From an uncultured Draconibacterium sp. (lineage in GTDB: Bacteria > Bacteroidota > Bacteroidia > Bacteroidales > Prolixibacteraceae): a stretch of DNA of 64,000 bases. Both the position numbers and the translations under genes were made by a program. The DNA is taken from the NCBI RefSeq assembly GCF_913060805.1, contig NZ_CAJXTC010000001.1:186001-250000 (forward strand). Reading direction: 5' to 3'. The notes under the pieces were generated by a model. It saw only the letters and a list, made by a program, of their open reading frames with translations. It searched no databases and had not been told where the DNA came from. Below are positions 30,119 through 32,896 of this stretch, piece by piece (positions within the stretch are counted from its first letter, which is position 1; every line of letters starts with the position of its first letter).

Positions 30119-30577
30119 ATGAAGTTATTCGTTTTTGATTTGGATTTTACCCTTTGGGATGCCGGTGGAACCTGGTGCGATGCTACAAATCCGCCGTATT
30201 ACTGGAGCGACGGGGCCTTGCTTGATCAATCAAACAGTGAAATGGAACTGTATCCTGATGTGATTCCGGTGTTAGAGGAGTTAAAAAGGAACAACCGCAA
30301 AATTGCTGCCGCTTCACGGACTTTCGAGCCGAGCTGGGCTCAAGATCTGCTTCACTTGTTTGATATCGACAAGTATTTCGACTTGAAAGAAATATACCCA
30401 AGCAGTAAGATTCAGCATTTCGCAAAAATCAAAAAGCATTTTGGAATTGATTATTCCGACATGGTCTTCTTCGATGATGAACACCGTAATATTCACGAAG
30501 TTGGAAAACTGGGTGTAGAAGCGGTTTTTGTAGATGAAGGACTACGAAAAGAGCAGGTTTTTCGGTATTTGAAATAA
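30119..30577 (+). CDS. HAD-superfamily phosphatase, MDP-1-like
   Basis: Small cytosolic Mg-dependent phosphatase of the HAD superfamily, 152 residues with no large cap domain. Motif I is at the very N-terminus, VFDLDFTLWD (Asp7 nucleophile, Asp9 acid/base); motif II Ser/Thr is in AAASRTFEP (about residue 64-66); the motif III lysine is in SSKIQHF; motif IV acidic pair in MVFFDDEHRN (about 117-126). This resembles magnesium-dependent phosphatase-1, a protein-tyrosine or sugar/fructosamine phosphatase. The start is fixed because motif I begins at residue 5. It stands alone after the TRAP genes, with a possibly leaderless transcript. Confidence 0.85.
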   Translation: MKLFVFDLDFTLWDAGGTWCDATNPPYYWSDGALLDQSNSEMELYPDVIPVLEELKRNNRKIAAASRTFEPSWAQDLLHLFDIDKYFDLKEIYPSSKIQHFAKIKKHFGIDYSDMVFFDDEHRNIHEVGKLGVEAVFVDEGLRKEQVFRYLK

Positions 30578-30685
30578 GCGGGTCAGGAATCGCATCGACG
30601 AGCATCAGGATTTTAAACCGTTAAATATCAGTTTATTCTTGTGCCATTTCAGCAAAAAATATTATGCCGGTTGATCAGCAGCAGG

Positions 30686-30693
30686 TATATTTG
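30686..30693 (+). promoter_or_regulatory. -7 promoter element of small RNA unit 1
   Basis: TATATTTG, exact TAnnTTTG match. TTATG at 30662-30666 lies 19 bp upstream and may be a weak -33 element. No reading frame of note follows before the terminator at 30763. Confidence 0.55.
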
Positions 30694-30697
30694 CACT

Positions 30698-30790
30698 ATA
30701 CAAACCCAGTAGTTAGTTTAGTTAGAGGTTATAGAAACCCGTTATATTGTGATAAAATAAATATCCCGGATTGGACGCCCGGGATTTTTT
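30698..30790 (+). ncRNA. Candidate small RNA unit 1 of a tandem pair
   Basis: Predicted transcript of about 90 nt between an exact -7 element and a strong intrinsic terminator: stem ATCCCGG (30763-30769), loop ATTGGACGC, CCGGGAT (30779-30785), then TTTTT. The 5' end carries ATACAAACCC (30698-30707) followed by a TAG/GAGG-containing stretch. Both ends match the unit at 30993, while the middle has diverged. No start codon with a sensible frame. I do not recognise a described RNA family. Confidence 0.6.
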
Positions 30791-30980
30791 ATGCCCGATG
30801 ATCAAAACCAGATGGTTATCACACTTGCAAAAGATCTAAAAAATGCCATTGGAAATTGTCGCTCAAGTTAATCACTCCATTTATTAAGAACTTATACGTC
30901 AGCATTTCGGCAGTCTTATTTTCAGCATTTTGGCCATTTGATTTCAGAATCCCCAATGGTGTATATTGTTAAAGCATAAT
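30791..30980. other. Spacer between the two small RNA units
   Basis: About 190 bp without a credible reading frame. A stretch with TATTTTCAG and GCCATTTGATTTCAG (around 30920-30950) loosely resembles the segment TATTCTTGTGCCATTTCAG before unit 1, as expected if the whole unit including upstream DNA was duplicated. Nothing else recognised. Confidence 0.35.
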
Positions 30981-30988
30981 TACTTTTG
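30981..30988 (+). promoter_or_regulatory. -7 promoter element of small RNA unit 2
   Basis: TACTTTTG, exact TAnnTTTG match, at the same distance from the ATACAAACCC 5' motif as in unit 1 (to within one base). No good -33 element seen. Confidence 0.55.
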
Positions 30989-30992
30989 TATT

Positions 30993-31096
30993 ATACAAAC
31001 CCCGCTAGAAATAGAGGAGGAGAATTATTAAAATTCATTTAGTTGTTAAAAAGACTGGATTGAAAAATCCCGGAGTGGACGCCGGGATTTTTTTTG
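30993..31096 (+). ncRNA. Candidate small RNA unit 2 of a tandem pair
   Basis: Predicted transcript of about 100 nt. It starts with ATACAAACCCC (30994-31004), continues through TAGAGGAGGAG (31013-31023, complementary to the 16S anti-Shine-Dalgarno core), and ends in stem AATCCCGG (31066-31073), loop AGTGGACG, CCGGGATT (31082-31089) and eight T. Shared 5' and 3' ends with unit 1 show common descent. There is no start codon suitably placed after the purine-rich box, so a peptide leader is unlikely. Confidence 0.6.
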
Positions 31097-31120
31097 TTTA
31101 GGTGACTAAATTCTGTAAAA

Positions 31121-31150
31121 AAAGAGTGCTCACGGACGCGAGCACTCTTT
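31121..31150. terminator. Bidirectional terminator after the M14 operon
   Basis: Perfect 11-bp stem AAAGAGTGCTC (31121-31131) and GAGCACTCTTT (31140-31150), with A/T runs on both sides. It ends the minus-strand M14 transcript and would stop read-through from the small RNA units. On the plus strand its loop is ACGGACGC, sharing GGACGC with the loop regions of the two small RNA terminators. Confidence 0.8.
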
Positions 31151-31174
31151 TTATTTATCGTTAAATCTCTTATT

Positions 31175-32896
31175 TTACAAAGTTACCGAAGTACTTGTAA
31201 CACCTGCTTTTTGAGAGATGTATTCCAATTTAACTTCTCCTTTGCCTTGAACAATAAATTCATATTCTGCCGAACTGTGTCCCGGAATGGCAAAGAACTG
31301 AACCTCAGGTTTATGTTCTTTATAACTTACCTGATCGAGACGGTAATCGTTAATTTTTCCGCCGGCAATTACTTTGGCCCCCGAAACTTTCAGGTGGTCG
31401 ATGGCATATAGTTTATCTTTCACCGCCTGGGCAGTCATGGTCGACAAACCATTTTTGTTTTTTAAGCGAACCCGAATTCGTTTCAGGTTATTATCCAATT
31501 CTTTTACTTCAAAAACATCCATTTCAACCTTTGGTGTTTCATTAGCAGCCAGCAATACAACTGAGGCATTGCGGTGCACCAAATCGGGCAACATAAATGG
31601 ATGTGGTAAACGAGAGCTCATTTTCACCCAGCCACCAATTTCAATTTCGCCATAAACCGGGTGATTATATGGATGCCATTCTTTGTATAATTCGCCCTGC
31701 ACCACATTGTCGTTAAACTTCAGCTGTTCACGATTTCGCTCGGTGCGATCGGTGCTTGTTGCCGGTTTGTCGCTTTTTTCTTTGTAAGTCTCCTGCTCAT
31801 CGCGCATGAAAAGCTCGCCAACAAAGGTGTATGATCCGTGCACAAAGAACATTTGCCCGTCGGAGTCACCAAAAGTTGGGTAAAGTTCAACCGAGGTCAT
31901 ATAAACATATCCGGGAGTTATTTTAATGGCTTCTTTGCCGATTACATCGTAAGCAGCAATATCTGATGCCGGAAGTACAGTTGTGTTGTCGGCAGGAACA
32001 CGCAACCACATACCGCCCGAGTTGTGAAATGAAAAGTTTACGATGATATTCGGATGTTTAGCCGCAAACTCATCAACAGCTTTGATACCGACGCCCGAAA
32101 ACGGAAAGTTTCCGGCTCCCTGCTGCACGTACTGAGGCTGCCAGTGGTAACCCCAGTTACGGTTCGGATCAAGATATCCTTCAGCATCTTCGTTAAATCT
32201 GCCATCGCCATCGTTATCAATTCCTTCGGAACCTAAAATGGTGTATTCTCCTTTTTCTCCGGGTTTTACACGAACCATAATGCGCGGATCTTCCGGATCG
32301 GGTTTATAATTTCCGTTCGGATCTTTTATGCGCATCTGGCAAATGCTGCCGTCGCCATCCAGATCATCCGGTGCATCTTCATCAAATAAACCGTCGCCAT
32401 CGTCATCCTTCGGAATACGAATGCTTCGGCTTGAACTTGGTGTGTGCGCATCCTTAAAAAAGTGGTTTCGACCATCGACATTCACTACAGGAATAATGTA
32501 ATGCACATTGCTGTCGACCGCTTTTGTTACCTTTTCGTTTTTGCCATATTTTGTAAGCAGCATATTGGCATAATACAGGCACACTTCGCCGGCCTGAATT
32601 TCGTTTCCATGAATGTTTCCGTCAACCCAAACTCCCGGTTTATCGTGTTCGGCACCGGTTTTTTCGTTGTTAATGGTAAGTGCATAGATCTTTAATCCTT
32701 CTTCACTTTCTCCAACCGATTCCAGTTTCGTCAGCTCGGGGTAGGCCGCATGAAGTACTTCCAGCGCTTTTACCACATCATCGTAATCGTAATAGCGGTC
32801 GAAACGAAGCGGTACTTCAATCTTTGGTTCGTCGGCGGCAAATACCGTAACAGCCAACGAGAATATTGCTAATAATGAAAATATCTTGCGTATCAT
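31175..32896 (-). CDS. Secreted M14-family zinc carboxypeptidase
   Basis: Predicted zinc metallocarboxypeptidase acting outside the cytoplasm (signal peptide ends near VFAAD). 573 residues. Zinc ligands are visible as His96 and Glu99 in DGNIHGNEIQAGE and His291 in VNFSFHNSGG; Glu361 in FVGELFMRDE is the likely catalytic glutamate. The N-terminal peptidase fold is interrupted (about 163-240) by two acidic loops, DDDGDGLFDEDAPDDLDGDG and IDNDGDGRFNED, that resemble EF-hand/thrombospondin-3 calcium sites. A beta-rich domain follows (about 440-573). It is second in a two-gene operon, 2 bp after its catalytically dead relative. Substrate unknown. Confidence 0.88.
   Translation of the reverse strand: MIRKIFSLLAIFSLAVTVFAADEPKIEVPLRFDRYYDYDDVVKALEVLHAAYPELTKLESVGESEEGLKIYALTINNEKTGAEHDKPGVWVDGNIHGNEIQAGEVCLYYANMLLTKYGKNEKVTKAVDSNVHYIIPVVNVDGRNHFFKDAHTPSSSRSIRIPKDDDGDGLFDEDAPDDLDGDGSICQMRIKDPNGNYKPDPEDPRIMVRVKPGEKGEYTILGSEGIDNDGDGRFNEDAEGYLDPNRNWGYHWQPQYVQQGAGNFPFSGVGIKAVDEFAAKHPNIIVNFSFHNSGGMWLRVPADNTTVLPASDIAAYDVIGKEAIKITPGYVYMTSVELYPTFGDSDGQMFFVHGSYTFVGELFMRDEQETYKEKSDKPATSTDRTERNREQLKFNDNVVQGELYKEWHPYNHPVYGEIEIGGWVKMSSRLPHPFMLPDLVHRNASVVLLAANETPKVEMDVFEVKELDNNLKRIRVRLKNKNGLSTMTAQAVKDKLYAIDHLKVSGAKVIAGGKINDYRLDQVSYKEHKPEVQFFAIPGHSSAEYEFIVQGKGEVKLEYISQKAGVTSTSVTL

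Follow-up and report, generated by a model that had tools for sequence, protein, structure and literature searches.

Tandem small RNA genes of a genus-restricted, multicopy family in Draconibacterium, and a noncoding leader that carries the same 5' tag

Two adjacent intergenic units in an uncultured Draconibacterium (positions 30686-31096 of the window, the 64,000-nucleotide stretch that was analysed) are best read as stand-alone small RNAs with an OmrA/OmrB-like layout. Each unit is made of a TAnnTTTG -7 box, the motif ATACAAACCC at its 5' end, a middle part that differs between the two, and a near-identical terminator. They belong to a multicopy small RNA family that is unlisted and absent from Rfam 15, and that is restricted to the genus Draconibacterium/Maribellus as far as sequence searches reach. 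The 8-mer ACAAACCC from their 5' end recurs in the noncoding leader of a gene elsewhere in the genome. The explanation that we tentatively put first is that the units are adjacent genes of a family whose ACAAACCC tag would be read by a trans-acting factor, with the small RNAs competing against the leader. The parts of the two units and the flanking genes are as follows.

30119-30577, same strand as the units: acid-phosphatase/HAD gene, upstream of the units
30686-30693, plus strand: -7 element of unit 1, TATATTTG, from sequence
30698-30790, plus strand: small RNA unit 1 (subtype A), with a probable start at about 30698-30700 and a probable end within the T-run
30698-30707, plus strand: shared 5' motif ATACAAACCC in unit 1, from sequence; ACAAACCC predicted unpaired (0.85)
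30763-30790, plus strand: terminator of unit 1, CCCGGATTGGACGCCCGGG plus T-run, folding as ATCCCGG-(loop ATTGGACGC)-CCGGGAT, from sequence, fold prediction and conservation
30981-30988, plus strand: -7 element of unit 2, TACTTTTG, from sequence and conservation
30993-31095, plus strand: small RNA unit 2 (subtype B), from its predicted stable fold (z -4.19 over 30993-31099) and conservation
30993-31002, plus strand: shared 5' motif ATACAAACCC in unit 2; CCC predicted partly paired with GGAGG, and ACAAACCC predicted unpaired at 0.63
31014-31022, plus strand: GAGGAGGAG of unit 2; the fold prediction pairs it with the CCCC of the same unit, enclosing a CUA-GAAA-UAG hairpin
31063-31095, plus strand: terminator of unit 2, AAAAATCCCGG-(AGTGGACG)-CCGGGATTTTT plus T-run, from sequence, fold prediction and conservation
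31175-32896, minus strand: M14 peptidase gene, downstream of the units and convergent

TAnnTTTG is the consensus of the -7 element. The sequence-only reading of this DNA had described two homologous units about 300 bp apart with a -7 element, the same 5' motif, a near-identical terminator and a diverged middle, and all of this is present as described, with 295 bp between the two 5' motifs. Its term "pair" is apt for tandem neighbours and too narrow for the genome, which has at least four members of the family. When both strands of the 64-kb window were searched, TACAAACCC was found only at units 1 and 2. The two units are not chance: among 2000 dinucleotide shuffles of the intergenic stretch, a promoter followed by ACAAACCC appeared in one, the terminator core in none, and promoter, ACAAACCC and terminator core together in none; the actual sequence contains each of them twice.

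The source genome's two further members, at C23 and C43, represent subtypes C and D, with unit 1 as subtype A and unit 2 as subtype B; further forms exist, and on reading the family's loci we find one plan with different middles. A generic terminator can be ruled out, since the 22-mer of the unit 2 terminator, allowing up to three mismatches, has three matches in the 5.48-Mb genome and all of them lie in family members (unit 1, with a loop one base longer, is not among the three). A strict pattern in which the tag itself is required gives 43 members, 70-158 nt long. Subtype D genes and the related L045 have a common box, AAAGGTCATTTTGA, ahead of the -7 element (L034, L045, L046, L047, L049, L052, L053), which is possibly a regulator site.

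Blast with the whole region found matches in 18 of 41 genomes, all within one genus. In genome contigs, 19 stretches were found, in Draconibacterium and Maribellus records and two MAGs (Bacteroidetes / Bacteroidota bacterium). Carriers of the family include Draconibacterium orientale, sediminis, mangrovi and aestuarii, Maribellus luteus, Maribellus sp. and MAGs. Among the genus genomes examined for the pair, a subset of the 37, the tandem arrangement is intact in 10 (G000, G002, G003, G005, G009, G012, G024, G076, G085, G086), and unit 2 alone was seen in G007 and unit 1 alone in G013. A covariance search with a model of the terminator alone (20 of 44 copies, unit 2 included and unit-1-type rows left out) reached 25 of the 37 Draconibacterium/Maribellus genomes at E<=1e-4 and nothing beyond the genus: at that threshold none of 103 other genomes of the taxonomic family matched (best 3.3e-4), nor did any of 394 genomes sampled from the rest of the class (best 3.6e-4), in searches that scored only the best candidates per genome under stricter filters, so that weak members may escape detection. 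Against this model even unit 1 reaches just 40 bits because its loop is one base longer, and type-A copies are therefore under-counted. The weaker matches outside the genus, at about 35-43 bits, resemble ordinary terminators, and no convincing promoter and tag was found at the 33 of these outside-genus loci that were checked, L080 and L089 included; the sole loose match among them (L101, tag part AAAAAATCC) was not counted. One exact pattern run against viral contigs gave no match. Over the window, Rfam 15 at the gathering threshold matched no family, known leader families included, and ARAGORN gave no match; the literature collection searched yielded no paper on the family or the motif, so that the earlier remark that the family was not recognised was a fair one.

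Comparison with nine relatives gives a mean identity of 91% for promoter and tag in both units, 87% and 88% for the middles of units 1 and 2, and 97% and 95% for their terminators; the corresponding values are 72% upstream, 61% in the spacer and 63% in the tail. At the level of sequence comparison, this shows the units to be under selection in the nine relatives. The middles, which keep 87% and 88% identity despite the divergence between paralogues, are constrained within each orthologue group. It had been suggested that such paralogues are redundant or additive regulators, which is possible; since each middle has its own constraint, they are probably not merely redundant. Repeats of the TTAGTTTAG type, at 30708-30730 in the middle of unit 1 and at L007, L009 and L181, expand and contract between species.

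Fold predictions are uneven across the family. Unit 1 has a z of -0.42, far from the value for unit 2, and z falls below -2 in 11 of the 43 members when the terminator is left out. The tag is predicted to be unpaired with a mean probability of 0.81 over the 43 members, versus 0.59 for the middles; AAACYC occurs two or more times in 12 of them, and each small RNA has one or two tags. Covariation in unit 2 is weak: its three two-sided changes come from one sequence apiece, a count reached by 28 of 500 shuffles, and its terminator helix hardly varies. The idea that unit 2 pairs with the 16S anti-Shine-Dalgarno is not supported: GGAGG is absent from unit 1 and found in 9 of the 43 members, and the fold prediction for unit 2 has it paired with the CCCC at the 5' end.

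Recurring matches, when followed, led to a second locus in the source genome (C7:136067-137176; G000, locus L193). Here ACAAACCC occurs seven times, in the same sense as in the small RNAs, within a noncoding leader of about 977 nt (~0.98 kb). The leader is flanked by a divergent GH32 gene and by a gene whose product looks secreted and contains HELVHGLG (HExxH); Pfam gave no match for this product, and to call it a protease would be our own reading. No ATG-started open reading frame above 46 aa was found in the ten leaders measured, and Rfam returned no matches over three loci that hold the leader (L187, L193, L198).

Some match to the leader was found in 26 of the 37 genus genomes, and the copies in the source genome and G005 are 90% identical over 1.1 kb. 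All seven copies of ACAAACCC are kept in each of 12 leaders, one per genome and the source genome included (L195 in G076 was missed by the leader expression and so falls outside this set), and in these 12 the tags are invariant in 56 of 56 columns versus 476 of 921 for the others. Homologues of the leader's gene with 45%, 38% and 63% protein identity (L159, L161 and L201 were compared) have shorter leaders. Longer leaders have more tags: counted from the -7 box, there is one tag in a leader of 38 nt, three in leaders of about 330 and about 430 nt, and seven in the leader of about 977 nt. The loci L169, L180, L164 and L202 are similar to these shorter-leader homologues. In five species, at L173-L177 (G009, G002, G024, G085, G007), a gene has a TTG start, placed by eye and in frame with a later long open reading frame, that comes a few bases after TAnnTTTG...ACAAACCC.

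In the source-genome leader the tags have a predicted probability of 0.79 of being unpaired, versus 0.42 otherwise. Two tag pairs frame stems, with one tag preceding the 5' arm and the other in the loop, ahead of the 3' arm; between modules and between species the stems vary in sequence, and the tags stay constant. Stems of 9-11 bp were found in 21 of 22 distinct twin-tag stretches, the 21 being orthologues of a few modules and not independent cases; of 2000 controls with plainly shuffled arms, 67 reach 8 bp. In three twin-stretch copies the first tag reads GCAAACCC or TCAAACCC. In module 2, two-sided changes occur in three cells, all belonging to a single pair (18 of 500 shuffles score as high), and in module 3 they affect three pairs (4 of 500 shuffles), the latter supplied by the source genome alone and counted over 11 of the 12 leaders, with L197 left out of alignment A7 for a one-base insertion. 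At its 5' end the leader shares ACACAACATCA with subtype D, a weak similarity that 2 of 300 shuffles equal and the best shuffle exceeds. A separate locus in G005 (L203, C1:2708900-2712400, minus strand near 1514) has two copies of ACAAACCC 32 nt apart with no framing stem.

These observations are what the proposed competition for a tag reader would bring together. Each small RNA, of about 70-160 nt, would present a mostly exposed ACAAACCC, as predicted from the folds, followed by a paralogue-specific middle and a family-specific terminator; gene structure and conservation are displayed directly by the loci, and transcription of both the small RNAs and the leader is our inference. In RNA, ACAAACCC would be the feature that a trans-acting factor, most probably an RNA-binding protein, recognises as a tag. 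In the leader of the gene for the secreted-looking HExxH protein this tag occurs in the same sense, one to seven times and partly as twin copies around a stem. The small RNAs would then compete with the leader, and perhaps with other mRNAs, for this factor, and the diverged middles may set the partners, strength or stability of each copy. Since ACAAACCC has one and the same sense in the small RNAs and in the leader, a common reader is possible and mutual pairing through the tag is not. The genome has two RRM_1 proteins, which are candidate tag readers.

A comparison can be drawn with the titrating small RNAs of the CsrB/RsmZ type, which have a short single-stranded motif, GGA, near stems. The likeness is a motif near stems that small RNAs have in common with an mRNA leader, which would point to competition for one protein, and the motif that would be shared with a target of such an RNA was found here in the same sense and predicted single-stranded in a leader that we take to be transcribed. 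The motif itself differs, being ACAAACCC and not GGA, and it comes in one or two copies per small RNA, which is few for a titrating RNA and counts against the proposed competition. In sequence, the link between small RNAs and leader consists of one 8-mer plus the weak ACACAACATCA similarity, and the CCC of the tag is predicted to be partly paired in unit 2. There is no visible sign in the genus of a general 5' tag behind promoters or of a wide regulon: ACAAACCC behind a -7 box has 73 matches, 42 of which are family members on our reading, which leaves 31, below the 54 matches that the control gives.

A substantial, though smaller, likelihood attaches to base-pairing small RNAs of the OmrA/OmrB type, in which the 5' ACAAACCC is a shared seed and the middles provide paralogue-specific targets. 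OmrA and OmrB are described as tandem paralogous small RNAs of 88 and 82 nt in one intergenic region, with near-identical 5' and 3' ends and a diverged middle (PMC12692685, PMC4211561). As far as these accounts describe them, the units are like OmrA/OmrB in their tandem genes, conserved ends, diverged middles and similar length, and the shared layout, together with a 5' end that is predicted to be mostly open, argues for a seed. The differences are that OmrA/OmrB belong to Enterobacterales, a different phylum, and have a different promoter type, that the source genome has at least two more dispersed copies, and that seed targets of the units were not found; the Omr family had no match at the gathering score in the window and did not appear when the threshold was relaxed to E=10 over 30550-31200, which gave 38 matches. 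PrrF1/PrrF2, compared in sequence through Rfam, are likewise tandem siblings, and for these and other siblings read-through of the first can yield a longer third RNA, in the account of PMC4211561.

Closer in taxonomy is FopS (RF04319), a well-studied set of multicopy paralogous small RNAs from Bacteroides with a single-stranded 5' part and a terminator, which, as its description has it, acts through a 5' seed (PMC11697453), a further point in favour of the seed explanation. The family described here resembles FopS in being multicopy, paralogous and from Bacteroidota, and in having the single-stranded 5' part and terminator set out in that description, but the 5' sequence of FopS is different (GTGTTTTTCATGGTATTAG...). 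Membership in FopS is ruled out by the lack of a covariance match above the gathering score: RF04319 had no match in the source genome and matched 1 of 13 genus genomes, below the cut-off, and the only match within 30550-31200, which covers the neighbouring hairpin on the other strand, scored 24.3 bits against a cut-off of 56.

The counts of possible seed targets do not favour pairing. Within 28 nt before an ATG, GGGTTTGT has 472 matches versus 609 for the reversed control (6 genomes), and GGGTTTG between a -7 box and an ATG has 25 versus 51 (8 genomes); both tests cover exact complements, with which imperfect pairing or pairing through the middle remains compatible. Among the matches listed, few of those recurring between genomes were fetched; of these, a GGGTTTGT...TTTAATG candidate was antisense inside a coding gene and was rejected, and another was the reverse strand of the ACAAACCC leader. 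A seed also gives no account of the selection that keeps this 8-mer, with unchanged sense, in an mRNA leader. We lean moderately towards a common trans-acting factor over a plain antisense seed because the tag is invariant and predicted unpaired beside changing stems, as would be expected of an RNA site that is recognised, and has the same sense in both RNAs.

It is very improbable that the terminators alone matter, as bidirectional terminators for convergent genes behind accidental promoters. An A-run and a T-run do flank most stems and the source-genome members point at convergent 3' ends, but the middles are conserved, the M14 peptidase gene has a hairpin of its own at 31118-31154, probably its terminator, and, when the genus loci are reduced to 51 distinct sense terminators, 46 have promoter and tag upstream (with up to one mismatch in the tag). 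This last figure is our reading of the locus list, after removal of 34 other-strand reads of the same palindromes and 4 loci outside the genus; ACAAACCC or ACAAACTC is still present in three of the other five. The hairpin at 31118-31154, GAGTGCTC-ACGGACGC-GAGCACTC with A- and T-runs, has GGACGC in its loop in common with the small RNA terminators.

Lower still is the probability that the units belong to downstream genes, as 5' leaders or attenuators whose terminator is regulated. The order of promoter, short RNA and terminator would suit such a role and the tag does sit in the mRNA of the secreted-looking protein's gene, but unit 1 runs into unit 2, and unit 2 can be no leader because the M14 peptidase gene downstream of it is convergent. 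The C23 and C43 members are intergenic and head for the 3' ends of opposite-strand genes, for a Zn-ribbon protein and murB, so that none of the four source-genome members has a same-strand gene downstream. Among the 42 of the 43 members with a downstream open reading frame it is on the opposite strand in 33 and on the same strand in 9, by a crude call. The four source-genome members thus have their own promoter and terminator, no conserved reading frame and no co-transcribed gene, and beyond the source genome their stand-alone character rests on that crude call. Taken with the conservation, the other members and the lack of an Rfam match, this upholds the initial view of paired homologous small RNA genes. 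Least probable of all are small peptide genes, with which a promoter and a terminator alone, and the one GTG and two TTG triplets of each unit, would be compatible; coding is unlikely because neither unit has an ATG and unit 2 orthologues differ by single-base indels, as do orthologues of the middles, and in 32 of the 43 members no ATG precedes the terminator.

Setting the competition for a tag reader in a wider frame, one could regard ACAAACCC as a genus-specific RNA address, with a dedicated factor that would read the twin stem-loops, as these build up from one tag to seven in the leader, and be titrated by the small RNA family, in a Csr/Rsm-like circuit of Bacteroidota with a new code; we consider this possible, if doubtful. 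To our knowledge, the mode of action of small RNAs in Bacteroides and its relatives is largely open. Bacteroides and its relatives are described as being without the classical small RNA chaperones of Pseudomonadota (PMC11697453). Here a conserved tag marks both an unlisted multicopy family and a second, concrete RNA, which would make the tag reader directly testable, for example in the cultivated Draconibacterium orientale.
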